In this document: positions 3,882 through 23,266 of the stretch, piece by piece
Position numbering within the stretch: position 1 is the first letter of the stretch
Layout of the letters: the number at the start of each line of letters is the position of its first letter
IMG/VR virus record: IMGVR_UViG_3300021959_000411
Span: 1-23,266 of that record
Origin: a virus
Length of the DNA stretch: 23,266 nucleotides
Strand: one strand, 5' to 3'
The notes under the pieces: model-generated
Seen by the model: the letters and a program-made list of their open reading frames with translations, nothing else
The model's database searches: none
What the model was told of the DNA's origin: nothing
Position numbers and translations under genes: made by a program

Positions 3882-6800
3882 AATAAAAAATACTTATCAG
3901 TCACTTGTAAAGTTTTCTGATAATGGAAATATAACTACTACAGCTAAACAATTAACTGATGGATTTGGTAATAACTCTCCTATGTTTGTATCAACAACAC
4001 AAATAGGAATAGGTGTTACACCAGAAACAGGATTAAACCTTCACGTTTTTGGAGATGCTAAAATAGGTAGCAATCTAACAGTCATAGGAAACTTAGTAGT
4101 TGAAGGAAGCACTACAACAGTAGGAACAGATACATTAACAGTTAAAGACCCTTTAATTGTATTAGCAAACAACAATACAGCATCAGATGCAGTTGATATA
4201 GGTTTTTATGGCAAATATCATCCTTCTAACACTACACTATACTCAGGACTGTTTAGAGAAGCTCTAACAGGTAAATACAGGTTATTTAAGGGATTACAAG
4301 TTGAACCTACTACAACAGTAAACACAAGTGGAACAGGATATGCAGTAGCTAGTTTAGTTGCTAATTTAGAAGGTAATTTTATAGGAGGTACTATTTCAGG
4401 TACTACAGGAACATTTAGTGGAAATATAATAGTTTCAGGAACAGTCGATGGTAGAGATGTTGCAACAGATGGAGCTAAGCTAGATGGTATTGAAGCAGGT
4501 GCAACTACTGACCAGACTGCTGCTGAAATTAAAACTGCTTATGAAAGTAATTCAAACACTAATGCTTTTACTGATGCTGATAAAACAAAATTAGATGGTA
4601 TTGAAGCGAGTGCTGATGTAACTGATGCTACTAATGTATTAGCAGCAGGTGCAGTAATGACTACTGGTAATCAATCTATTAGTGGAGTAAAAACATTTAG
4701 TGACCAAGTAACTATACCTGCTACTCCAAGTGCAAGTACAGATGCAGCTTCTAAAGGATATGTAGATTCTGCTATAGGTGATAACAATGAACTATCAGAA
4801 GTGCTAGCAAATGGCAACACTACAGGAGGAACTGATATAGATGTAAGTGCAGGAGATGATATAACATTTGCAGATAGTAGTAAAAGTATTTATGGTGATG
4901 ATTTTGATTTAAAAATATATCACGATAACTCAAAAGGTATTATTAGAAACACAACAGGTTCATTAGATATTCAAAGTGTTGAATTTTTAGTTGAAGATAC
5001 TTCAGGAAATAATTGGATAAAAACAGCAGTTGGTGGAGGAGTTCTTTTGTATTATAATGATAGTAAAAAGTTTGAAACAACAAGTTATGGAATAAATGTT
5101 ACAGGAGATATTTCTATTCCTGTTAGCAACAAAATACTTTTTGGTGGTAGCAGTCATACATATATAAGTGAAGATATTGACGACAGATTAAGGTTCTTTG
5201 TTGGTGGTGCTGAATTTATGAGGTTTACAGAGGGTGTTTCTGACACAATAAACTTTTATCAAGACGTAACTTTTTCTGGCGACCTTATTGTTCCAGAGTA
5301 TATTAAACACGAAGGAGATGCAGATACCTCTATAAGATTTACTACAAACACAATTAGATTTTATACAGCAAATAATGAAGTGTTAGAATTAGAAAGTGAT
5401 GGGCAAGTAAACGTAATATCTTCTGGTACGGCTACAAATCCTTGTATAACAATAGGAGATGATGTTAATACAGGTATATGGAGACCTGCATTAGACACTT
5501 TTGCAATATCTACAGCAGGAACAGAAAGAATGCGTATAAACAGTTCAGGAAACGCAACTTTTGCAGGAACTTTAAGTTCTGGTGCTATAACTTCTACTGG
5601 AGAAATTGAAGGTGGGTCTTTAGACATAAATGGTAATGCTGACATAACTGGAAATTTAAACATATTAGGTAGTACTGCTTTAAATGTTACAGGTAATGCA
5701 GATGACAATTGGATAGGAAGATTTGAAAATACAAATTCTGGAGGTTTTGGTATTTTAGCACAAATAGCAGGGACAAGTTCTAATGAAAGGATATTTGAAG
5801 CAAGAGTTGGAAGTAGTACTAAAATGCTTATTACAGGAGATGGAAATACAACTTTTGCAGGGAATGTAAAATCAAATTCAACAACTGCGTTTTCAGTTGG
5901 GACTGTTGGAAACATAGGAAACACAGCAGGAGATATAAATATTTATAGCACAAGTTCTGGTCATAATGGTTTAAGAATGCACGCTAATGGTATTTTACCT
6001 ACTGATAATGCAGGTACTATTATTGATAATGATGCAGATTTAGGTTTTCCAACTTATAGATTTAAAGATTTATATTTAGGTGGTTCTATTACAGCAGGTG
6101 GTGCAACTTTTGCAGGTAGTGTAACTGTAGATGGGGCATCAAATAGTAATGTATCTCAACTTGCATTAACAAGAACAGATTTTTCTTGGGGTATATTTAA
6201 TGAAACTGATTTAAGGTTTTATGTACAAAGTGGAAATACAACTACTCCAAATACACAAGTTCTTCAAATAGGAACAACTGGATTAACTACAATAAAAAGA
6301 ACTGGTATAACAGGAGTTGCTAAAGCTGATATGATTTTACAAATAGGTTATGAAGGCAATAATGGTCAAAATAACTTAATTGGTTTTGGATATAATGCAC
6401 AAACTAATATTCCTGCATATATTGGATATACTACAACAAGTGGTAGTGGAAGCACAAAAGGAGATTTAGTTTTTGGAACAAGAAGTGTAACTTCAGATAC
6501 TGCTCCATCAGAAAGAATGCGTATAACATCAGGAGGGGATATTCAATTTACTGGTAATAGTCATACACCATATATTCAACTTGTTAATAGTGGTAGAACT
6601 GAAGGAAATCCAGGCTTTACTTTTAATGGTGATACAAACACAGGAATGTTTCAACCTGCTGGAGTTGCTGACACTATTGCTTTTTCAACAGGTGGTTCAG
6701 AAAGAATGCGTATAACATCTGGTGGCAACGTAGGAATTGGAACTGATGACCCTGATTATACACTTCATTTGTTAAAATCATCTGGAGATACAGAAATGTA

Positions 6801-10557: not shown

Positions 10558-10611
10558 AATTCAATACCCTATGAATTTAATAGGGTTTTATATATATTTG
10601 TGAATTCAATA
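10558..10611 (+). repeat. AATTYAATA repeat cluster A around a -7 element
   Basis: Three copies of the 9-nt word AATTYAATA lie at 10558-10566, 10574-10582 and 10603-10611, each followed by C or G-rich bases (CCC or GGG). The first two also form an imperfect dyad with AAATTC and GAATTT arms. They flank TATATTTG at 10593-10600. The same word is clustered again near 21.7 kb. A repressor or activator binding site is the simplest reading. Confidence 0.5.
10593..10600 (+). promoter_or_regulatory. -7 element flanked by repeats
   Basis: TATATTTG fits TAnnTTTG exactly. No TTTG or TTG lies 24 nt upstream; that place is occupied by the AATTYAATA repeats. A transcript from here would meet the terminator at 10649-10681 before reaching any gene, giving an RNA of roughly 75 nt or a leader controlled by read-through. 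Confidence 0.4.
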
Positions 10612-10690: not shown

Positions 10691-10722
10691 CTTGCACATG
10701 ACATATTTTATCTATATGTTTG
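10691..10722 (+). promoter_or_regulatory. Promoter for the ERF/replication operon
   Basis: CTTG at 10691-10694 and TATGTTTG at 10715-10722 are separated by exactly 20 nt, matching the Bacteroidota -33/-7 arrangement. The -7 element ends only 4 nt before the ATG at 10727, so the predicted start of the RNA is at or very near the start codon, implying a leaderless or almost leaderless message. It lies directly after the terminator that insulates it from the late genes. Confidence 0.6.
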
Positions 10723-10726
10723 TTGC

Positions 10727-11290
10727 ATGGAAAACTTAACAAAGAAGTTGGTGAAAGTTCAAGGGAGTTTGAAAGCACCAAAAAATCAAAGGAACAATTT
10801 CGGTAATTACAATTACAGGAGTTGTGAAGACATCTTAGAAGCAGTTAAACCTTTACTTATAAAAGAAGGGTTGTTATTGACTATCTCTGATTCTATTGCC
10901 CCAGAACCTTTATTTGTTAATGCAGTTGCTGAAATTACTGATGGTAAAGACAAGATTACCGTTAGAGCTCAAGCAGGTATTAACTTAAATAGAAAAGGAA
11001 TGGATGTAGCTCAATGCTATGGAGCATCAAGCAGTTATGCTAGAAAGTACGCTTTAAACGGTTTATTTTTAATTGATGATACCAAAGATGCAGATGCTAC
11101 TAATAATCACTCTAAGGTAGCTAAAAACGCCTCTACAGACGTATTAGAGCCTACTAAGGACTGGCTAGACGAAAAAGGAGACAAGTTTGATAAGGCAAAA
11201 GATGCCATAACAAAAAAAGGTTTTACTATAGCCGATATTAGAAAAAAATATAAAGTAAGTAAGAAAGTAGAAAAATTATTATTAACCTAA
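10727..11290 (+). CDS. ERF-family single-strand annealing protein
   Basis: This 187-residue protein is a phage recombinase of the ERF family, which anneals complementary single strands during recombination-dependent replication and genome circularisation. The family signature is clear: FGNYNYRSCEDILEAVKPLL (about residues 24-43), a glycine-linked hydrophobic stretch, ITVRAQAG, and GASSSYARKYALNGLFLIDD (residues 100-120), followed by DTKDAD. The C-terminal third is Lys-rich and probably a separate small helical domain. The frame stays open back to a TTG at 10637, but that extension would cross the terminator and promoter, so the ATG at 10727 (MENLTKKL) is chosen. The SSB-like gene follows after 14 nt. 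A RecE-like exonuclease encoded at 15.8 kb is the probable partner. Confidence 0.9.
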   Translation: MENLTKKLVKVQGSLKAPKNQRNNFGNYNYRSCEDILEAVKPLLIKEGLLLTISDSIAPEPLFVNAVAEITDGKDKITVRAQAGINLNRKGMDVAQCYGASSSYARKYALNGLFLIDDTKDADATNNHSKVAKNASTDVLEPTKDWLDEKGDKFDKAKDAITKKGFTIADIRKKYKVSKKVEKLLLT

Positions 11291-11304: not shown

Positions 11305-11562
11305 ATGAATGAAAAAAAGTATGTAGGAAGTGGTAAACAGCAAGGTAATTATGACCTAGTTAACTTTACTATTGCCGAAGAGAAAACAAAAGATGCATGG
11401 ATTGAGTACAACGGTAAAAGGTACTTAAAACTAACTATTGGCAAGAAAAAAGAAGTTGACCAATATGGTAAAAGCCATAGTGTATGGATAGATGAGTATG
11501 TGCCAGATAGTGCAAAGCAAGAACCTGCTAAGCCACTGCCTACCCCAGATTTACCATTTTAG
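11305..11562 (+). CDS. Putative ssDNA-binding protein (SSB-like)
   Basis: This 85-residue protein looks like a minimal OB-fold single-strand DNA-binding protein. The sequence begins YVGSGKQQGNYDLVNFTI, then EYNGKRYLKLTIGKKKEVD and YGKSHSVWIDEYVP, which alternates beta strands and basic turns as in an OB barrel. The last residues are Pro-rich and end in PTPDLPF, which resembles the acidic-hydrophobic tail (DDDIPF) through which bacterial SSB recruits repair and replication proteins. It sits between the ERF gene and the replication genes, the usual place for a phage SSB. It is shorter than standard SSBs and I cannot prove the fold from sequence alone; similar short proteins are widespread in Bacteroidota phages. 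Confidence 0.6.
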   Translation: MNEKKYVGSGKQQGNYDLVNFTIAEEKTKDAWIEYNGKRYLKLTIGKKKEVDQYGKSHSVWIDEYVPDSAKQEPAKPLPTPDLPF

Positions 11563-11572
11563 TTATTAACAT

Positions 11573-11600
11573 TCCCCTTAAGCTTAATCGTTTAGGGGGA
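11573..11600 (+). terminator. Weak hairpin, possible terminator
   Basis: A CCCC-rich arm at about 11574-11580 pairs with TTTAGGGG at 11591-11598 around an AT-rich loop. The following sequence is attattatc without a good T run, so this may be an RNA stability or attenuation hairpin rather than an efficient terminator. Confidence 0.35.
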
Positions 11601-11615
11601 TTATTATCTTAAATT

Positions 11616-11921
11616 ATGATACAAAGAAAAAACACAAAATACGTTAACATTAATTTAGCATTTATGAATACAAACTTAACAATATCGGAAGCTACAGTAT
11701 TATCTTATATAGATTCATTAGCAATTAAAAAAGGTTATTGTTTTGCCTCAAATGAAAGTATTTGCATGGCATTGAATTTAAATGACAGAACTTTATACAG
11801 AATATTAAAGAACTTAGAAAACAAAGAATACATAACAAGGAAGACAAAAAGCTTAGGAAATGACGGCAAAGAACGTAAGATTTACGTTAATCCAAGTGTC
11901 AGGAGTGTCAGTTCTATGTAA
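11616..11921 (+). CDS. Winged-helix DNA-binding protein, possible replication initiator
   Basis: This 101-residue protein contains a helix-turn-helix of the winged type: SEATVLSYIDSLAIKKGYCF is the first part, followed by ASNESICMALNLNDRTLYRI as the turn and recognition helix, and LKNLENKEYITRKTK as the wing approach. The pattern is that of the HTH_36-like domain found in plasmid and phage replication initiators and in regulators. Its stop codon lies inside the first of three 17-bp dyads, and the primase-helicase gene follows, so it could bind those dyads to start replication or to control its own operon. The start ATG follows an AT-rich leader. I cannot tell initiator from regulator from sequence. 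Confidence 0.7.
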   Translation: MIQRKNTKYVNINLAFMNTNLTISEATVLSYIDSLAIKKGYCFASNESICMALNLNDRTLYRILKNLENKEYITRKTKSLGNDGKERKIYVNPSVRSVSSM

Positions 11922-11979
11922 TACATAGTGTATTATATAAATAAATAATACATAGTGTATTATTATACATAGTGTATTA
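11919..11979. repeat. Three 17-bp dyads, candidate origin or operator
   Basis: TAATACATAGTGTATTA, a perfect dyad with 7-nt arms around TAG, occurs at 11919-11935 and 11946-11962. A third copy with one changed base in the left arm lies at 11963-11979, directly abutting the second. Centre-to-centre distances are 27 and 17 nt. The array is between the winged-helix gene and the primase-helicase gene and covers the whole gap from 11919 to 27 nt before the helicase start. The layout resembles iterons or operators for a dimeric HTH protein. Confidence 0.7.
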
Positions 11980-12005: not shown

Positions 12006-13730
12006 ATGCAAGAAAACTTTGTAAAAATTGGAATCGTACCTAAAGGCAAATACTCACAACAGAAAGTAAAGTGCCCAAAATGTAGTCATACTCGCAAGAA
12101 AAAAGACGACTGCTCATTGTCTATAAATGTTGATGATGGTTTATATCATTGTCATCACTGTGGTTGGAACGGTTCTGTAAACCCTAATAATACTATGCAA
12201 GAAAAAACATATACTTTGCCAACTACAAATAACTTAAAAAAGATAAATTCTAAAGCTATTAAGTTTCTTAATGATAGGGGCATAACAAACGAAGTAATAG
12301 AAAGCAATAAGATTACCACTACAAAAGATGGTAGAAGTGTTGTATTTCCATACTTAAAACATAATGAACTTGTTAATTATAAAACAAGAGGCATTGATAA
12401 TAAAACATTTACACAATCTAAAAATGGAGAACCAATAATATTTAATTATGATAGGGTTGTAAATCAAGATTATGTAATACTATGTGAAGGTGAATTAGAC
12501 TCATTAAGTTGGGAAGTTGCAGGTTTTACTTGGCACACTTCTGTAAATATGGGTGCACCAAATGTAAAAGATAAAAACTTAGACAAGAAGCTTGAATGTA
12601 TTACAAACTCTTATGAGGTTTTTGATAATGCAAAAGTAGTTTACTTATGCACTGATAACGATGAAAACGGTAGATACTTAGAAGAAGAACTTGTAAGAAG
12701 AATTGGTGCAGAGAAAATTAGATTAATTGATACAAATCCATTTAAAGATGCTAACGAGGTTTTACTTAATGAAGGTGTAAAATCACTACAACATAGATTT
12801 AAATATGCTAGAGTACCAAAGGTTGAAGGTATATTTAGTGTAAATGATATTTATGATAGTATGTTAGATGGTTATAGGAACGGACAAGAAAGAGGTTCAA
12901 CAACTCACGTTGAATGTATTGACAGAGCTTGGACTTGGAGAAACGGAGAGGTAAATATTTGGACAGGTTACCAAAATGAAGGTAAAAGTATGTTCTTAAA
13001 TCAGCTATCAGTTTTAAAGGCATTTCATGAAGGATGGAAGTTTGCAGTGTTTAGCCCAGAGAATATGCCTATAAATGATTTCTTTCACGACTTAATAGAA
13101 ACTTACATTGGCAAGAGTTCTGACCCTTATTATAAAGATAATTATATGAGTGAAGATGAATTTAAAATAGCTATGGAGTTTATGAAAAAGCATTTTTTTA
13201 TTATATATCCAAAAAAAAGTTATAAATTAGAGGACATCTTTGAGAGAGCTAAGTTTTTAGTTAAGGCAAAAGGTATTCGTTCATTGATTATTGACCCTTA
13301 CAATACAGTACAACACCGTATGCAAAGAGGTGAAAGAGAAGATTTATACATTAGTAGATTTATGAGTGAACTTAAAAGGTTTGCCGTAGAAAACAAAATC
13401 TCTGTTCATTTAGTTGCACACCAAGTTACACCACAAAAAGATGATGGTGGCAGATATAATAAACCTGATGTCAACAGAATTAAAGGTGGTGGTACATTTG
13501 CAGATAAATCTGATAATGTATTATTTGTATGGAGACCTAATCGAGCATTAGACTTTAGTAATACAGCAGTTGTATTTGGAAGTCAAAAGATAAAGAAACA
13601 AAAACTTGTAGGTTATCCTCAAGAAGTTGAAGGCATAACTTACAGTAGAAAATCGAACAGATATTATTTCAATATGGAAACACCCTTTGATATTGTAGAT
13701 AATATAAGATGCGAATCAGAGCTAGAGTAG
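12006..13730 (+). CDS. Primase-helicase (T7 gp4-like)
   Basis: This 574-residue protein combines primase-type and helicase modules, unwinding the fork and probably priming it. The N terminus has a zinc ribbon, CPKC (C23, C26) and CHHC (C49, C52). A TOPRIM-like domain follows with VILCEGELDSLSWEVAG (about residues 158-174) and VVYLCTDNDENGR (about 213-225), giving the E and DxD acidic residues. The C-terminal half is a DnaB/RecA-type ATPase with Walker A GYQNEGKS (residues 321-328), Walker B LIIDPYN (D430), and HLVAHQ as the sensor motif. As no DNA polymerase gene is in the window, it must work with a host polymerase or one encoded elsewhere. Its 3' end overlaps the VRR-NUC gene by 22 nt. The start lies 27 nt after the dyad array. 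Confidence 0.93.
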   Translation: MQENFVKIGIVPKGKYSQQKVKCPKCSHTRKKKDDCSLSINVDDGLYHCHHCGWNGSVNPNNTMQEKTYTLPTTNNLKKINSKAIKFLNDRGITNEVIESNKITTTKDGRSVVFPYLKHNELVNYKTRGIDNKTFTQSKNGEPIIFNYDRVVNQDYVILCEGELDSLSWEVAGFTWHTSVNMGAPNVKDKNLDKKLECITNSYEVFDNAKVVYLCTDNDENGRYLEEELVRRIGAEKIRLIDTNPFKDANEVLLNEGVKSLQHRFKYARVPKVEGIFSVNDIYDSMLDGYRNGQERGSTTHVECIDRAWTWRNGEVNIWTGYQNEGKSMFLNQLSVLKAFHEGWKFAVFSPENMPINDFFHDLIETYIGKSSDPYYKDNYMSEDEFKIAMEFMKKHFFIIYPKKSYKLEDIFERAKFLVKAKGIRSLIIDPYNTVQHRMQRGEREDLYISRFMSELKRFAVENKISVHLVAHQVTPQKDDGGRYNKPDVNRIKGGGTFADKSDNVLFVWRPNRALDFSNTAVVFGSQKIKKQKLVGYPQEVEGITYSRKSNRYYFNMETPFDIVDNIRCESELE

Positions 13731-13999
13731 ATGCTAACCAGAAAAAAATAGTTGCCCAATTAAGAGGGGTAGGATGCTCTGTCCTCCATACTCACCAATT
13801 AGGAAAAGGTGCACCAGATATTATTGTAGGTTATAACTTTAATAATTACTTAATAGAAATTAAAGACGGTTCTAAACCTAAAGCACAACAAAAATTAACA
13901 CCAGATGAAGTTAGATTCCAATCTGAATGGAAAGGAAACTATTATGTTATAAATTCATTTGAACAACTTAGAAACATTGTATTTAAAGATGAGCTCTAA
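13709..13999 (+). CDS. VRR-NUC nuclease
   Basis: This 96-residue protein is a stand-alone VRR-NUC domain, a PD-(D/E)XK nuclease family found in phage and in Holliday junction or structure-specific nucleases. The core is present: an N-terminal helix with QKKIVAQLRGVGC, then KGAPDIIVG (D37), and YLIEIKDG (E50, K52) as the ExK part, followed by LTPDEVRFQSEWKGNYYVI. It starts inside the helicase gene (22-nt overlap), so the two are translationally linked. A likely role is processing branched DNA during recombination-dependent replication or packaging. Length and motifs fit the family well. Confidence 0.88.
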   Translation: MRIRARVDANQKKIVAQLRGVGCSVLHTHQLGKGAPDIIVGYNFNNYLIEIKDGSKPKAQQKLTPDEVRFQSEWKGNYYVINSFEQLRNIVFKDEL

Positions 14000-14558
14000 G
14001 ATACTTGACATATTAGCTAAAAGGCATAATGAATGGCTAAATATGGCTAAAAGTTTTAAATTGAATAATAGTGATGCTAATGAATTAGTTCAAGAGATGT
14101 ATTTAAGAATGTATGATTATACAAAAGATGTAAAAAGAATTATGTATAATGAAACAGAAATTAATACATTTTATATATATATTACATTAAGAAATTTATA
14201 TTATAGCAAGTTTACTAATTATAACAAAAATAAAAAAACAGTGTTATTTTCAGATATAGACACTGAAAAATTTAATTATATTATGAATCAAATAGTTTAT
14301 GATGTTGACCAACATAATGATAATTATAAAAAAAAAGTTAACTTAGAGGCATTGTACAATAAAATAGAAGGCGTAATTGAAGAGTGGTATTGGTACGATA
14401 AAAAGCTTACTAGGTTATATTTAAATACTAATATGAGTATGCGAGACATCAGTAAAGAAACAAAAATAAGTTTAAGTTCAATATTTAATACATTAACAAA
14501 TGCAAAAGAAAAAATTAGAAAGAAAACCAAAGAAGAATACAAAAAGTACAAAAGCTAA
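13989..14558 (+). CDS. Sigma-70-like factor
   Basis: This 189-residue protein resembles a small RNA polymerase sigma factor of the region 2 plus region 4 type. Residues about 23-48 (NSDANELVQEMYLRMYDYTKD) match region 2.1-2.2, and the C-terminal part with LTRLYLNTNMSMRDISKETK and SLSSIFNTLTNAKEKIRKK is a region 4-like HTH. The middle is Lys/Asn-rich and divergent. The reading frame is open from a TTG at 13959, but the ATG at 13989 is preferred, giving MSSKILDILAKRH and an 11-nt overlap with the nuclease gene. Proteins of this kind recur in Bacteroidota phages. Placed at the end of the replication block, it could direct host polymerase to late promoters. The base composition is even more AT-rich than its neighbours. 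Confidence 0.8.
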   Translation: MSSKILDILAKRHNEWLNMAKSFKLNNSDANELVQEMYLRMYDYTKDVKRIMYNETEINTFYIYITLRNLYYSKFTNYNKNKKTVLFSDIDTEKFNYIMNQIVYDVDQHNDNYKKKVNLEALYNKIEGVIEEWYWYDKKLTRLYLNTNMSMRDISKETKISLSSIFNTLTNAKEKIRKKTKEEYKKYKS

Positions 14559-16594: not shown

Positions 16595-16786
16595 ATGGAA
16601 GACCAATACTTAGATTATTTAGATTGTTATGAAGACACTCTACTTTGTCTAAAGAAAAGAGTAATAACAGAAAAAGAAATACCATTATTAATCGAACAGT
16701 ATGAAAATGAAGAGCACTATGAATGTTGTGGTGCAATATTACACGCTTTAGAGGATTACAAGATTCAACAAAATTATTTACCATAA
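16595..16786 (+). CDS. 63-residue acidic protein, unknown
   Basis: This protein is rich in Glu, Asp, Tyr and Leu, with four cysteines, including CC in HYECCGAIL. It is probably helical. Its ATG follows the exonuclease stop with no gap, and its stop shares one base with the next ATG (TAATG). No homology is recognised. It could be a small modifier or inhibitor of the adjacent enzyme or of a host protein. Confidence 0.6.
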   Translation: MEDQYLDYLDCYEDTLLCLKKRVITEKEIPLLIEQYENEEHYECCGAILHALEDYKIQQNYLP

Positions 16787-17235
16787 TGATAACACAAAAA
16801 GAAATAGCAGACGAACTTAATAGAATATCTGGATTAGATGTATTTAGAGTAACAAGAAGAAGAGAATATGTTGAGGTCAGGTCTTTATTGAATCACATAC
16901 TTTACAACTATAAGAAAATGCCATTGAGTAAAATAACTAAATTCTATAACAATAACGGTTGGGATATAAATCATGCAACCCTTATACACTCTCTTAGAAC
17001 ATTTGATTTACACAAAAGGTATAATTCTAGTTTATTAATTTGGTTAGAACATATAGTTGACAATATAAATAAAATGGATAATTTTATTAAAAGAGAATAC
17101 ATTAGAGCTAAAATAAATAGCTTAGACAATAAAGACATTGATGAATTAACAATGGTCATTAGTAATATGCCAGAGAGAGAAATAGAATTAAAAAACAAGA
17201 AATACATTACAAGAAAATATGAAAAACAATTATAG
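16786..17235 (+). CDS. DnaA domain IV-like DNA-binding protein
   Basis: This 149-residue protein contains a segment like the C-terminal DNA-binding domain of DnaA: YVEVRSLLNHILYNYKKMPL, SKITKFYNNNGWDINHATLI and HSLRTFD. The spacing of the R-x-x-x-x-x-L helix, the SL-x-x-I-like helix and the final H-A/T-T-x-x-H-S signature fits DnaA domain IV (usual form DHTTVxHA). The ATPase domain is missing. The C-terminal half is Lys-rich and helical. The start at 16786 is chosen over the longer frame from 16723 because of the TAATG junction with the previous gene. Such free domains could bind origins or antagonise host DnaA. The similarity is moderate. Confidence 0.6.
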   Translation: MITQKEIADELNRISGLDVFRVTRRREYVEVRSLLNHILYNYKKMPLSKITKFYNNNGWDINHATLIHSLRTFDLHKRYNSSLLIWLEHIVDNINKMDNFIKREYIRAKINSLDNKDIDELTMVISNMPEREIELKNKKYITRKYEKQL

Positions 17236-19165: not shown

Positions 19166-19197
19166 TTTGTCAGTTGGAGAATTAATTACTATATTGA
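19166..19197 (+). promoter_or_regulatory. Promoter P1 with TCAGTTGGA element
   Basis: TTTG (19166-19169) and TATATTGA (19190-19197) are 20 nt apart. The spacer begins with TCAGTTGGA, shared with two other promoters in this region. RNA would start near 19201, about 40 nt before the ATG at 19241. The -7 element deviates from TAnnTTTG at its last two bases. Confidence 0.65.
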
Positions 19198-19589: not shown

Positions 19590-19793
19590 ATGAAAGCACT
19601 ATTTAACAAAACAATTAAAACTGCAATAGTATTAACCTATTGTATAATGACATCATCCTTATTATATCTTGTCTTTACTTTTAATGACAATTTATTTAAC
19701 AACGGAACACTAGGAATACAAACCTTGTTTCTTTGCCTATCCTTAACTATTGTAGTTGGTTTGGTTTTAGACACATATAAAAACAATAAGTAA
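19590..19793 (+). CDS. 67-residue membrane protein with two spans
   Basis: Two hydrophobic stretches, at about residues 12-30 (TAIVLTYCIMTSSLLYLVF) and 42-60 (IQTLFLCLSLTIVVGLVLD), are joined by a polar loop with NDNLFNNG. The ends are basic, which puts both termini in the cytoplasm. It is the first gene after promoter P2, so it should be among the most expressed of this cluster. Function is unknown; early phage membrane proteins often interfere with host envelope functions or other phages. Confidence 0.65.
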   Translation: MKALFNKTIKTAIVLTYCIMTSSLLYLVFTFNDNLFNNGTLGIQTLFLCLSLTIVVGLVLDTYKNNK

Positions 19794-19993
19794 TGATAGT
19801 AAAATTAGCAGTTCATTATGAACAACAAAGAACAAACAAAAAAGACAATAACAATGGTTTGTTGTATGGTATATATCATTATGATATACCTAAAAAAGAT
19901 TTAGATACAGATAATATGTTTAACAATGACATTGTTCATGTTGAATGGTATAAAACAAAATTAGAAAGAAATAAACAACTTAAAAATAAATAA
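19793..19993 (+). CDS. 66-residue protein of unknown function
   Basis: The ATG shares one base with the previous stop (TAATG). The protein has MIVKLAVHYEQQRTNKKD, an Asn/Gly turn, LLYGIYHYDIPKKDLDTD and a basic tail KLERNKQLKNK. It looks like a small soluble alpha/beta protein rich in Tyr, Lys and Asn. No family is recognised. Confidence 0.6.
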   Translation: MIVKLAVHYEQQRTNKKDNNNGLLYGIYHYDIPKKDLDTDNMFNNDIVHVEWYKTKLERNKQLKNK

Positions 19994-19995
19994 TT

Positions 19996-20154
19996 ATGAA
20001 CAAAGTAAACGCATTCGAGAACGAAATATTTGACCATTACAGAAAAAGAGTAAATCAAATAGGAAAGTCAATTAACCTATTAAAAAGTCATGGCTACACA
20101 GTTGTAGATTTAGAAGGCAAGATAATAGAAAACGAAATAGAATTAACTGAATAA
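19996..20154 (+). CDS. 52-residue helical protein
   Basis: The ORF runs from ATG at 19996, two bases after the previous stop, and ends in TAATG with the next gene. It encodes MNKVNAFENEIFDHYRKRVN, QIGKSINLLKSHGYTVVDLE and GKIIENEIELTE. The pattern is a long helix followed by a beta hairpin (GYTVVDLEGKII). The tight junctions on both sides support a real gene. Function is unknown. Confidence 0.65.
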   Translation: MNKVNAFENEIFDHYRKRVNQIGKSINLLKSHGYTVVDLEGKIIENEIELTE

Positions 20155-20351
20155 TGTCAGACATCAGAACTCAAGAACTATTAATTCTAAACATAAAAGA
20201 ATTAGAACAAGAGGTGGTAAGCTTACAATATGATATTAATTGGCAAAATCATTACATGGACTTCTTAGAGGGCAAGAATGACGAACTACATCATAAAGCT
20301 ACTGTACATGCTAACTACATTATGAACTCAACTAAAACCTATGAGATATGA
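20154..20351 (+). CDS. 65-residue coiled-coil protein
   Basis: The sequence LLILNIKELEQEVVSLQYDI followed by NWQNHYMDFLEGKNDELHHK has heptad spacing and probably forms a dimeric coiled coil. It is joined to its neighbours by TAATG upstream and ATGA downstream. No other feature is visible. Confidence 0.62.
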   Translation: MSDIRTQELLILNIKELEQEVVSLQYDINWQNHYMDFLEGKNDELHHKATVHANYIMNSTKTYEI

Positions 20352-20644
20352 AAACAATAATAAAGAAAATCAAAGATTATAACCAAAAAATGATGAGTCA
20401 AGTAAAAAAGACAAGGCATGAACTACAAGATGATGTTAAAATTGAAGTTAGTTCTAATTACAGGATAGAGGGCGACAAGGAAGCAAAGAAAGATGTGTTA
20501 GCAAGTTTAGAAATATATTCTTACACCATCACACCAGAAGAACTAGAGGTGCTTGTAGAAGCTCTTAAATGCGTTTATTCAAATCATCCTGATGGAGAGA
20601 TTAAAATGTCTGTTACACATAATCACGAATACTTAAATTGTTAA
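20348..20644 (+). CDS. 98-residue protein of unknown function
   Basis: A Lys-rich N-terminal helix (MKTIIKKIKDYNQKMMSQVK) is followed by DDVKIEVSSNYRI, a second helical region, SYTITPEELEVLVEALKCVY, and a His/Asn-rich end, VTHNHEYLNC. It is likely soluble. The start overlaps the previous stop by 4 nt. I do not recognise a family. Confidence 0.6.
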   Translation: MKTIIKKIKDYNQKMMSQVKKTRHELQDDVKIEVSSNYRIEGDKEAKKDVLASLEIYSYTITPEELEVLVEALKCVYSNHPDGEIKMSVTHNHEYLNC

Positions 20645-20646
20645 TT

Positions 20647-20784
20647 ATGAGAAAGTGTAATAAATGTGCAACAATAATAGAACAGAAAGCAAAGCAACTA
20701 TTCTGTTATAATTGCAAAGGGTATAAACTGCGTTACGAAACTTATGAGTTTTATTCAATAGCAAATCAATTTAATAATAAATAA
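20647..20784 (+). CDS. 45-residue zinc-ribbon protein
   Basis: The ORF encodes MRKCNKCATIIEQKAKQLFC and then YNCKGYKLRYETYEFYS. C4, C7, C20 and C23 form two CxxC knuckles 12 residues apart, the classic treble or ribbon zinc site. The start lies 2 nt after the previous stop (TAATTATGA) and the end is followed by the same TAATTATGA spacing. Such tiny zinc ribbons in phages often bind nucleic acid or a host protein such as RNA polymerase; which one cannot be told here. Confidence 0.7.
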   Translation: MRKCNKCATIIEQKAKQLFCYNCKGYKLRYETYEFYSIANQFNNK

Positions 20785-20786
20785 TT

Positions 20787-20954
20787 ATGACACAAAATAA
20801 AATAATAAAAGATAATGCAATTAGTATTTTAGATTCAGCATATTCTGGAATACTAAGAATGGTCAGAAGCGATGATGACTATGAAACTATTAACCTAATC
20901 CAACCAATCCTTGACAAGATTGATGAGATACAAAACGAAATAGAAGAATTATGA
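20787..20954 (+). CDS. 55-residue acidic helical protein
   Basis: The ORF encodes MTQNKIIKDNAISILDSAYS, GILRMVRSDDDYETINLIQP and ILDKIDEIQNEIEEL. It is likely two helices joined by the acidic turn SDDDYE. It overlaps the next gene as ATGA. Function is unknown. Confidence 0.62.
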   Translation: MTQNKIIKDNAISILDSAYSGILRMVRSDDDYETINLIQPILDKIDEIQNEIEEL

Positions 20955-21160
20955 AAGTAAACAGAGTATATAAAGTAGTGCGACCTATGAGAAGGTTTGG
21001 TAATTTAATAAAGGACATTATAAATCCAAGAGAATCAAAATATGCTTGGTGTAGATACCCTTTGTATGCCAAAACTAAAAAACAAAAGGAATTGTATATG
21101 GCTACAATAATAGAACACTTAGACAATAGAATAGAAATTAACCCAGAAATAGAAATTTAA
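20951..21160 (+). CDS. 69-residue basic protein
   Basis: The N-terminal half is strongly basic (MKVNRVYKVVRPMRRFGNLI), followed by YAWCRYPLYAKTKKQKEL and an acidic end, EINPEIEI. It could bind nucleic acid. It overlaps the previous gene by 4 nt and lies 4 nt before the next ATG. No family is recognised. Confidence 0.6.
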   Translation: MKVNRVYKVVRPMRRFGNLIKDIINPRESKYAWCRYPLYAKTKKQKELYMATIIEHLDNRIEINPEIEI

Positions 21161-21164
21161 TAAT

Positions 21165-21356
21165 ATGACACACCTTGAGGATTTAAACAGAATTGAAATC
21201 AGACACCTTAGAGATACAGTAAATATCTTTGAAAGTGAGATTAGAAAACTAAGAAAACTACTTAAAACAATTAAGGAAGAGAACGAAACACTTAGAGCAA
21301 AAAATGAATTGCATAGGCAACAATTAGAATCAGAATATAGAAAAAGTAAAGTTTAA
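21165..21356 (+). CDS. 63-residue leucine-zipper-like protein
   Basis: Almost the whole protein is a charged coiled coil: LNRIEIRHLRDTVNIFESEI, RKLRKLLKTIKEENETLRAK and NELHRQQLE, with Leu or Ile at heptad positions. It probably dimerises. It is followed after 3 nt by the next gene. Confidence 0.65.
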   Translation: MTHLEDLNRIEIRHLRDTVNIFESEIRKLRKLLKTIKEENETLRAKNELHRQQLESEYRKSKV

Positions 21357-21359
21357 AAG

Positions 21360-21605
21360 ATGCAACATAAATTTATTAGGGAGTTGGTAGAGTTTAAATT
21401 TAAAGCTATTAGAACTGCCACAAAGAAAGCTAAACTATTTATCGAGTATGATAATTCAATGGTATGGATTCCAAACTATATGATATTTAGATTTAGTTGG
21501 GATAAAGAAAATAATATAGTTAGGGTATTATGTCCTAAAAAACATTTGGTTAGTATTATAAACCAACCCAGAGAAAAGCGTAAATATAGAGAACGTAAAT
21601 CATGA
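21360..21605 (+). CDS. 81-residue basic protein of unknown function
   Basis: The protein has FIRELVEFKFKAIRTATKKA, then KLFIEYDNSMVWIPNYMIFR, and a basic tail, QPREKRKYRERKS. The middle part looks like a beta meander (VWIPNYMIFRFSWDKENNIV). The stop overlaps the next gene as ATGA. It may bind RNA or DNA; no family is recognised. Confidence 0.62.
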   Translation: MQHKFIRELVEFKFKAIRTATKKAKLFIEYDNSMVWIPNYMIFRFSWDKENNIVRVLCPKKHLVSIINQPREKRKYRERKS

Positions 21606-21742
21606 AGCAACTAACCTTTGAGATAAAAGAAGTAGGACAAGAAGTTTATACTAAGCAATTCAATACGGATAGGTCAATTCAATACACCATTGAGCAATAC
21701 TCAAGGCATCGCCAAATTCAATACATGAATTTAATAGAGTAG
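21602..21742 (+). CDS. 46-residue protein with embedded AATTCAATAC repeats
   Basis: The ORF starts in an ATGA overlap and encodes MKQLTFEIKEVGQEVYTKQF, NTDRSIQYTIEQYSRHRQIQ and YMNLIE. The beta strand followed by KQFNTDR and a helix is a pattern I have seen in small Flavobacterium proteins. Three of the four AATTCAATAC repeats of cluster B lie inside this coding sequence, read in two different frames (QFNT versus IQY), so they are not simply a protein repeat. This suggests that the DNA word itself is under selection here. It is the last gene before the 380-nt gap. Confidence 0.6.
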   Translation: MKQLTFEIKEVGQEVYTKQFNTDRSIQYTIEQYSRHRQIQYMNLIE

Positions 21743-21770
21743 ATTATAAATTCAATACATAAATTTAATA
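21657..21770. repeat. AATTYAATA repeat cluster B
   Basis: AATTCAATAC occurs at 21657-21666, 21676-21685, 21715-21724 and 21749-21758. The last two are each followed after 3 nt by AATTTAATA (21728-21736, 21762-21770), so that two units of about 22 nt repeat with a 34-nt period. The same word forms cluster A at 10558-10611. The array spans the end of a small gene and the start of the gene-free region. Confidence 0.55.
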
Positions 21771-21893
21771 TACCCCACCCATTCAAAAAATATCTGTTTT
21801 CTGTTCGGCTCTTCTTGGGCAATTTGCAAAGCTAAAAACAAATAAAGCATAAAAGCAAAATAATATTCTTATTTAGAATTAATATAAATTAAC

Positions 21894-22025
21894 ATGAATA
21901 ATCAACTTTGTTTGTTAATTGTTTTGTCAGTTGGAATATTTATATATATATTTGTAGTGTTGTTAAAGTCAAAGCTTCAATATATTCAAGCTGGTAGAGT
22001 GAGCAAAGGTCAAAGCGAAACCTAA
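21894..22025 (+). CDS. Possible 43-residue membrane protein overlapping P3
   Basis: The ORF encodes MNNQLCLLIVLSVGIFIYIF and VVLLKSKLQYIQAGRVSKGQ, then SET. It would be a single membrane helix followed by a basic tail, a credible small membrane protein, and its ATG has an A/T-rich leader like other genes here. However, the promoter P3 (21923-21954) lies inside it and shares TCAGTTGGA with two intergenic promoters, and an AT-rich promoter read in frame naturally yields hydrophobic residues. Either or both could be real. Confidence 0.3.
   Translation: MNNQLCLLIVLSVGIFIYIFVVLLKSKLQYIQAGRVSKGQSET
21923..21954 (+). promoter_or_regulatory. Promoter P3 with TCAGTTGGA element
   Basis: TTTG (21923-21926) and TATATTTG (21947-21954) are 20 nt apart, both exact consensus matches, and TCAGTTGGA fills the first half of the spacer exactly as in P1. 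RNA would start near 21958, giving a leader of about 165 nt before the ATG at 22124. It likely drives the second block of small genes to the end of the window. Confidence 0.72.
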
Positions 22026-22110
22026 CGAGGCGACAAAAGAGTTATCTTAGAATAGCAAAAAGGTGTAAAAAAGTGGCACCTACTCATAGACAAATCAAAA
22101 CACTTATAAT
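21958..22110 (+). ncRNA. Possible structured leader or small RNA
   Basis: After P3 the sequence contains three short inverted repeats: AGCTT/AAGCT (21973-21977, 21988-21992), AGGT/ACCT (22007-22010, 22020-22023) and AGGTG/CACCT (22061-22065, 22077-22081). No T-run terminator follows, so it may be a 5' leader of the gene at 22124. It matches no riboswitch or tRNA that I recognise. The extent is approximate. Confidence 0.3.
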
Positions 22111-22123
22111 TTAAATTAATACT

Positions 22124-22456
22124 ATGAAAACATTAAAATTAAATCTTAATCAAGAAGTTACAAATCTTTTTTTAAGTGGTGGAATTCTTGTTAAATCTTG
22201 CATTTCATCAGATGAAAAATTCTTTGTTGGTGTTGTTAAAATGCCAAAAGATAATTTAGCAAATGATAATATTTATAAAACAAACAGAAAGTTTGAGTTT
22301 GTTATGATTTCAAATTATATTTATGATTCTGAAATTGTTATTACTTCTTACCATAATCAAAGCATGAGAAAGGTAAAAACCTTATGTATTGAACAATACG
22401 AGGAAGATATGCAAGCATATAGAAGAAAAATAAAATCTATTGAATATATTTATTAA
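22124..22456 (+). CDS. 110-residue protein of unknown function
   Basis: The sequence has LKLNLNQEVTNLFLSGGILV, SSDEKFFVGVVKMPKDN, FEFVMISNYIYDSEIVITSY and EDMQAYRRKIKSIEYIY. It looks like a beta-rich domain followed by a C-terminal helix. It is the first clear gene after P3. No family is recognised. The next gene follows after 2 nt. Confidence 0.65.
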   Translation: MKTLKLNLNQEVTNLFLSGGILVKSCISSDEKFFVGVVKMPKDNLANDNIYKTNRKFEFVMISNYIYDSEIVITSYHNQSMRKVKTLCIEQYEEDMQAYRRKIKSIEYIY

Positions 22457-22458
22457 AT

Positions 22459-22560
22459 ATGAAAAACTTATTTAAAATATTATCCGAAATTTTCGCATTT
22501 GGTTTGTTCGCCTTTGTTATGGGCGTTTGCCTTATCTTATTAATTAACTTATTTATATAA
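22459..22560 (+). CDS. 33-residue membrane peptide
   Basis: The ORF encodes MKNLFKILSEIFAFGLFAFV and MGVCLILLINLFI. One membrane helix covers about residues 9-32, after a basic N terminus. It starts 2 nt after the previous stop and ends 2 nt before the next ATG, which supports a real gene. Function is unknown; a toxin-like or membrane-perturbing peptide cannot be excluded. Confidence 0.55.
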   Translation: MKNLFKILSEIFAFGLFAFVMGVCLILLINLFI

Positions 22561-22562
22561 CT

Positions 22563-22736
22563 ATGAAATATATTAAAATTCCTTTAGCATATCTTCCAAC
22601 TGAAAACAATGAATATGAATATGATTATGATTATATGAGAATCATGTTTGAAAAACAATTAGAATTATTATTTCATTTACAAAGTGGAACTAAACCAGAA
22701 TCAAAAAACCATATTAATTATAATTTAACAAAATGA
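22563..22736 (+). CDS. 57-residue Tyr-rich protein
   Basis: The ORF encodes MKYIKIPLAYLPTENNEYEY, DYDYMRIMFEKQLELLFHLQ and SGTKPESKNHINYNLTK. An acidic Tyr/Asp/Glu run at residues 14-24 leads into a helix. It overlaps the next gene as ATGA. No family is recognised. Confidence 0.6.
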   Translation: MKYIKIPLAYLPTENNEYEYDYDYMRIMFEKQLELLFHLQSGTKPESKNHINYNLTK

Positions 22737-22918
22737 AAACAAAAAGAATCAAAGAACTAAACAACCTTTATGCAGTGCCAACAGGCAAAATGTACAAAGT
22801 AAAAAGTAACACGCTAAAAACTATCTTAAAACGTGTTTTATTGCACCCTTTCACGGTAGCGTTAACCGTTTATTCATTAATAATATTATCAATTATTATT
22901 TTAACCATAAAAATCTAA
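22733..22918 (+). CDS. 61-residue single-span membrane protein
   Basis: A basic N-terminal half (MKTKRIKELNNLYAVPTGKM, TLKTILKRVLLHPF) is followed by one membrane helix, about residues 41-59 (TVALTVYSLIILSIIILTI), and a very short end. The topology is N terminus inside. It overlaps its upstream neighbour by 4 nt. Function is unknown. Confidence 0.62.
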   Translation: MKTKRIKELNNLYAVPTGKMYKVKSNTLKTILKRVLLHPFTVALTVYSLIILSIIILTIKI

Positions 22919-22920
22919 AT

Positions 22921-23253
22921 ATGAAAACAAAAACTATTGACGTAAACGCAAAAGAATGGTATGATAAAATTAATGGCAATTCTTATTTTTGTGGCACAAT
23001 AACCCTTAATTATTTAATGGATAATGAGGAAACTTTTTTAATGCCGTTTCAATATGGTTACGGCTCTTCCTATGAATGTGAAGCTAAAGCAATATTAACA
23101 GAGTTTAATAAAATAAGTGGCAATTGGTTTCAAGGTTTATATACTTATTGTAAAGACAATAATATTATTTACAGGTCAAACATAAAAAGAAACTCATTAA
23201 AAAGAGAATTAAAACAAATTGAAACTGATTATAATAATAACCTAAATAAATAA
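22921..23253 (+). CDS. 110-residue conserved-looking phage protein
   Basis: The protein has EWYDKINGNSYFCGTITLNY, then EETFLMPFQYGYGSSYECEA and KAILTEFNKI, with a Lys/Asn-rich C terminus. The pattern NGNSYF followed by a YGYGSSYE segment and a helix is one I have met in Bacteroidota phage and plasmid proteins without a known function. It starts 2 nt after the previous stop. It is probably soluble and alpha/beta. Confidence 0.65.
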   Translation: MKTKTIDVNAKEWYDKINGNSYFCGTITLNYLMDNEETFLMPFQYGYGSSYECEAKAILTEFNKISGNWFQGLYTYCKDNNIIYRSNIKRNSLKRELKQIETDYNNNLNK

Positions 23254-23257
23254 ACAA

Positions 23258-23266
23258 ATGAAAACA
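23258..23266 (+). CDS. Start of a gene cut by the window end
   Basis: ATGAAAACA follows the previous stop by 4 nt and an A-rich leader, like the other genes here, three of which also start with Met-Lys-Thr. Only three codons are visible, so nothing can be said about the product. Confidence 0.4.

Follow-up and report, generated by a model that had tools for sequence, protein, structure and literature searches.

A single protein, very probably the 101-residue winged-helix (HTH) protein encoded just upstream of the primase-helicase, appears to read two arrays of short palindromic dyads in a group of uncultured phages, one array lying between its own gene and the helicase gene and the other before the late operon. 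We put the probability at roughly one half that the pair works like that of Bacillus phage SPP1, array 1 being an initiator-bound origin of replication and array 2 a second origin or a replication fork barrier. The main rival explanation is a transcription switch, and a dual role of the arrays as origin and operator is possible. The window, i.e. the whole 23,266-nucleotide stretch of viral DNA that was analysed, contains array 1; array 2 is seen in relatives. The phage belongs to an uncultured family of marine phages whose hosts are probably flavobacteria. No prophage relatives were found in 84,980 species genomes, and that route therefore gave no host assignment. A literature search on replication initiation in phages of this kind found nothing, and the subject seems to be almost undescribed for them.

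Array 1 and its neighbouring genes

The features of the window that bear on the two arrays are the following:

10712-11290, + strand, ERF single-strand annealing protein (E 4.3e-35), upstream part of the replication-recombination module
11305-11562, + strand, 85-aa protein in the usual SSB position, without family match
11573-11600, + strand, intrinsic-terminator-like hairpin directly 5' of the HTH gene
11616-11921, + strand, winged-helix (HTH_36) protein of 101 aa, DNA-binding domain only, the proposed dyad reader
11907-11913, + strand, GTCAGTT promoter-type element within the final codons of the HTH gene, five bases 5' of dyad 1
11919-11935, no strand, dyad 1 of array 1, TAATACA-TAG-TGTATTA, shared by clade A relatives, in some with base changes
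11936-11945, no strand, AT-only spacer of 10 bp between dyads 1 and 2
11946-11962, no strand, dyad 2 of array 1, perfect copy
11963-11979, no strand, dyad 3 of array 1, one mismatch
12006-13730, + strand, primase-helicase (Toprim + DnaB_C; phrog_239 E 4.5e-81), directly 3' of array 1
22921-23253, + strand, last open reading frame of the window

The earlier note on this DNA had described three 17-bp dyads, two perfect and one near-perfect, and their coordinates and sequences agree with those found here. The two identical dyads, TAATACATAGTGTATTA at 11919-11935 and 11946-11962, are perfect 7-3-7 palindromes whose 7-bp arms are perfectly complementary and flank TAG; the third, TTATACATAGTGTATTA at 11963-11979, has a single mismatch. 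Dyad 3 abuts dyad 2 and dyad 1 overlaps the HTH stop codon, both as had been described: the TAA stop of the 101-codon gene (11919-11921) is also the first three bases of dyad 1. The dyads do lie in the gap between the HTH gene and the helicase, as claimed, and do not fill it, as a 10-bp AT-only spacer and a 26-bp leader between dyad 3 and the helicase ATG remain. When the whole window was searched on both strands with up to three mismatches, all 5 matches fell inside array 1, versus a mean of 0.66 in shuffled sequences (0 of 100 shuffles reached 5); the window thus holds no copy outside array 1 and hence none 5' of the HTH gene. Of all 50-bp windows in the record, array 1 is among the 0.01% that are least stable.

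The protein encoded at 11616-11921 matches HTH_36 in Pfam well above the curated cut-off (E 1.3e-10, 41.4 bits vs 25), which bears out its earlier description as HTH_36-like. The PHROG families that it matches best are of replication-initiation and DnaD-like type (phrog_428 5e-13, phrog_186 6.5e-10 and phrog_270 5e-9). In Foldseek the AlphaFold model (pLDDT 76.5) has RepA initiator domains of plasmids among its top rows, on a par with MarR-type repressors and others; the values against RepA_N initiators are E 1.1e-3 to 4.8e-3 and Z 9.7-9.8 with 22-26% identity. The protein ends at residue 101, immediately past the winged-helix domain, and has no C-terminal domain. The hairpin before its start has equivalents in L037, L163 and L170, and in more distant clades it is a canonical GC stem with a T run, which suggests that the HTH gene owes its expression to limited read-through of a terminator located a few bases before the start codon.

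Neither a DNA polymerase nor a helicase loader was matched among the ~17 window open reading frames scanned. A sigma-factor-like protein is encoded at 13959-14558 (phrog_1740 E 1.7e-4); the corresponding position of Nonlabens phage P12024S, before its terminase, is taken by a Sigma-70 region 2 protein. A second short repeat family, AATTCAATA/AATTTAATA, is unrelated to the dyads; it occurs in 17 copies versus 4.1 expected, 16 of them on the + strand, with clusters at 10558-10611 upstream of ERF and at 21657-21770 in a 518-bp non-coding gap.

Lineage-specific dyads in the relatives

A scan of IMG/VR yielded 48 loci with the HTH protein, to which an alignment-based scan added more distant ones. 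Wherever the sequence downstream of the HTH gene was read, dyad-like repeats were found between this gene and the helicase, and their sequence differs by lineage. Clade A, 80-100% identical to the window protein, has three dyads of the form TACA-N3-TGTA; clade A70 (about 70%) has N3 or degenerate dyads; clade B (about 55%) has about five dyads TACA-N1-TGTA; and clade E (54%) has TACACT-N1-AGTGTA, i.e. TACA-N5-TGTA. Clades C and D show different, less regular palindromes to which no single spacer could be assigned. In clades B and E the first dyad is already within the final codons of the HTH gene, an overlap also seen in origins that lie in initiator genes. In the alignment of the HTH proteins the key residues of the recognition helix, DRTxYR, are invariant save for L or F in position x, and the two ends of the protein vary, a pattern that would fit constant half-sites with changed spacing. 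One helicase, that of IMGVR_UViG_3300046167_000393 (L122, G002 24940-25245), was split in tblastn, which suggests a frameshift or an assembly error.

A second array before the late operon

The second array was first met in a pattern scan for paired dyads, in which several long contigs matched twice. In relatives that span both regions it consists of the same dyads and lies 11-13 kb from array 1, just 5' of the late (tail-side) operon, whose first gene encodes 236-238 aa. The window itself ends about 1.17 kb short of this site, and contig L073, 100% identical to window positions 19628-23266 (3,639 bp), continues into it: nine dyads are found there at 4811-4958, following one another at steps of 17, 17, 17, 17, 17, 12, 17 and 17 bases. 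When genomes were searched blindly with the 9-mers of array 1 only, the best 150-bp window elsewhere was array 2 in 16 of the 16 genomes that have it. The scores were 16-76 for array 2 versus 6-12 for the next best site, clade D being weakest (16 vs 9); the exception to the next-best range is one record that runs past full circle and shows array 2 twice. Both arrays are within the least stable 1% of the 50-bp windows of their genomes, often at the very top, in part because the dyads themselves are AT-rich.

In the genomes read at this place, array 2 is preceded by the gene of a small conserved protein (about 66-98 aa, phrog_5945 E 2e-5; L121:289-531 and equivalents). In P12024S a relative of the late gene that follows array 2 is found directly behind the terminase (L192:23136); no HTH_36 relative was found in that phage, the HTH gene and array 2 being missing together.

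The spacer between the half-sites changes in step at the two loci. Counts of TACA-Nk-TGTA in array 1 and array 2, respectively, are 15 and 18 for N3 in clade A, 11 and 16 for N3 in A70, 12 and 15 for N1 in clade B, and 4 and 5 for N5 in clade E, and no peak of such sites is seen in the rest of each genome. By its words, array 2 is far closer to array 1 of the same clade than to that of most other clades; A and A70 resemble each other, which was expected. The comparison of dyad conservation with HTH divergence that the earlier note had proposed thus supports a pairing of protein and sites.

The reader of the dyads

Since the spacer is the same within a genome and specific to the lineage between genomes, both arrays are very probably read by one protein, and the adjacent winged-helix protein is the best candidate. 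Gene conversion between the arrays could contribute to their likeness, and would still imply that both must match one reader. Another phage protein might be that reader, such as the small terminase subunit acting at packaging sites or the sigma-like protein, with the HTH gene a mere neighbour; the terminase small subunit and the sigma-like protein are likewise present in nearly all array-bearing clades checked, and the co-variation of array and HTH protein tracks the whole phylogeny. We nevertheless consider this improbable, as the dyads are joined to the stop codon or the coding end of the HTH gene, the symmetry of the dyads suits a winged-helix dimer, and the terminase genes are about 5 kb from array 2.

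A packaging or partition site was set aside on the same distance of the terminase and on the lack of partition genes among the proteins scanned. A 170-aa protein encoded at 16723-17235 resembles DnaA DNA-binding domain IV (PF08299 E 0.019, below the cut-off). Clade A has it and parts of B and E give weak matches, but A70 gave none, which makes it an unlikely general reader.

The palindromes could also act in the transcript as tandem hairpins between the HTH gene and the helicase. Folding of the transcript does beat that of shuffled sequences (z -3.25), as is expected of any palindromes, but many dyads carry one-sided changes that break the outer pairs (TAATACA...TGTAATA), the spacer is altered in every copy at two distant loci simultaneously, and Rfam gave no match; a role as an RNA element is accordingly very improbable. 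A tRNA search found nothing.

Origin or operator

If the arrays serve replication, the HTH protein would occupy the dyads of both loci in the form of a symmetric dimer. Array 1, where the HTH gene ends and before the primase-helicase, would be the initiator-binding part of an origin; once it is filled, the AT-only stretches among and next to the dyads would open, and the self-contained primase-helicase would be brought to the bubble. Array 2 would be a second binding region like oriR, either a second origin or a fork barrier that feeds ERF-dependent concatemer synthesis.

The position of the HTH gene is the context that favours this proposal. The helicase of Tenacibaculum phage JQ is an orthologue (51% identity), and the gene directly 5' of it encodes a 247-aa initiator-like protein (phrog_1701 7e-20, phrog_270 1e-19). 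Among JQ-type contigs read far enough upstream a two-domain protein of 218-290 aa fills this slot in nearly all, the exceptions being one contig with an extra gene between and one that is truncated. Most of the ten slot proteins tested match replication-initiation, DnaD or primosomal PHROGs, or else phrog_29280, other members of which here carry such replication-initiation, DnaD or primosomal matches. The genes of Staphylococcus phage 85 follow the same arrangement, with annealing protein, SSB, HTH_36 initiator and helicase loader in this order. An hhalign comparison of the HTH alignment with the initiator-like protein of one JQ-type contig showed no homology. The repeats near the initiator gene of JQ have no resemblance to the dyads; a 391-bp non-coding stretch of that phage (L193:34705-35096) holds three 20-nt repeats at 46-47-base steps and is a candidate origin or regulatory region.

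Against an origin, the HTH protein has no helicase-loader domain, unlike the slot proteins of the JQ-type phages, and array 2 is weak in clade D. The GC skew shows no turn at either array; it is positive throughout because all genes are on one strand, and a version computed from fourfold sites was too noisy. DnaA boxes form no cluster near either array. The layout of an iteron origin with its initiator, proposed in the earlier note, is supported in part, by the PHROG initiation matches, the initiator slot and the pairing of protein and sites; a GC-skew signature of an origin is absent at 11.95 kb.

A second, larger array 5' of the late operon makes possible both a two-origin system and a two-operon switch. 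In the latter the HTH protein would be a regulator that covers the promoter start region of the helicase operon at array 1 and acts on the late-operon promoter at array 2, timing early and late expression, and replication would start elsewhere. Each array is indeed immediately 5' of an operon and bordered by GTCAGTT promoter-type elements, which gives both the look of operators, and the protein is a DNA-binding domain only, with a model that matches MarR-type repressors as well as RepA. GTCAGTT is the core of promoters of the type TTTGTCAGTTGG-N-TAnnTTTG; the TTTGTCAGTTGG motif occurs at window positions 19169, 19540 and 21926, with TAnnTTTG, or something close to it as at 19.17 kb, 8-14 bases further on, and in clades B, D and E a motif of this type also stands 5' of ERF. 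The GTCAGTT next to array 1 matches those at 19.17, 19.54 and 21.93 kb and is kept at the nucleotide level, its Val codon GTC (1.9% of Val codons) being invariant in 26 of 26 distinct clade A genes and 22 of 22 clade A70 loci. Array 2 is flanked by TAGTCAG on its 5' side and TTCAGTTGG on its 3' side.

Several features speak against the switch. The HTH gene sits in the initiator slot; no TAnnTTTG -7 box is present in or near either array in any genome; clades B-E lack GTCAGTT before array 1; and nine dyads at 17-bp steps in array 2 exceed the usual operators. Nor is there autoregulation of the simple kind that the earlier note had offered as an alternative, as no dyad is found 5' of the HTH gene and all lie downstream of its start. 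On balance we regard the switch as somewhat less probable than the origin.

The origin reading can be carried a step further. A single initiator of 101 residues, comprising only a DNA-binding domain, may serve two dyad origins together with a self-loading primase-helicase, the spacing having shifted by two bases at a time (1, 3, 5) at both loci at once while the key recognition-helix residues stayed nearly unchanged; these phages would then offer a natural series of initiator-origin co-evolution, a proposal that we make tentatively, at somewhat less than even odds. A defined protein, two arrays of sites and natural variants with spacers of 1, 3 and 5 make binding, dimer geometry and the choice between origin and operator directly testable, and the paired changes 11-13 kb apart are a clear example of concerted change in a protein and its dispersed sites.

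Comparison with known systems

The initiator gp38 (G38P) of phage SPP1 binds two regions 12-13 kb apart, oriL inside gene 38 and oriR in the late region, and stalling at oriR has been proposed to trigger annealing-protein-dependent sigma replication (PMC3485210, PMC6316719). Compared by description, the phages considered here likewise have one AT-rich array at or in the candidate initiator gene and a second at a similar distance in the late region, and both systems include an annealing protein in the replication-recombination set, gp35 in SPP1 and ERF here (PMC3485210, PMC6316719). Unlike SPP1, with its separate loader gp39 and DnaB-like gp40, the window has a fused primase-helicase and a protein that is a DNA-binding domain only; the SPP1 sites are described as direct repeats, whereas those of the window are symmetric dyads. 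The likeness may thus be one of working like SPP1 oriL/oriR, short of proven membership.

The iterons of phage lambda are 19-bp imperfect inverted repeats beside an AT-rich region at the O gene, and oriLambda therefore resembles array 1 in having inverted-repeat iterons next to AT-rich DNA at an initiator gene (PMC7466680). The lambda iterons are confined to a single locus, unlike the two loci of the window family. They lie in the middle of O, and the O protein has a second domain for the loader P. The term plasmid-type initiation, applied to this DNA in the earlier note, is needless, since in lambda and SPP1 it is usual for dyad iterons to lie beside or within the gene of the initiator (PMC7466680, PMC6316719).

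RepA_N initiators (pSK41, pTZ2162) and the RepA of PLE recognize semi-palindromic iterons that are bound by dimers (PMC7145576). The N-terminal winged helix of RepA_N initiators is among the Foldseek top rows of the HTH model at E about 1e-3, tied with MarR-type folds; unlike these initiators, the window protein has no C-terminal domain. With the DnaD/DUF7833-type initiator-like proteins of the JQ-type phages it shares the slot and an orthologous helicase. The JQ-type proteins differ in their 218-290 aa with a C-terminal domain, and in most of those phages the helicase gene follows with hardly any gap or none, and no dyad array lies in front of it. An initiator with iterons at two loci is of a known kind, and what would be new here is a candidate initiator consisting of a DNA-binding domain only and dyads that switch their spacer.
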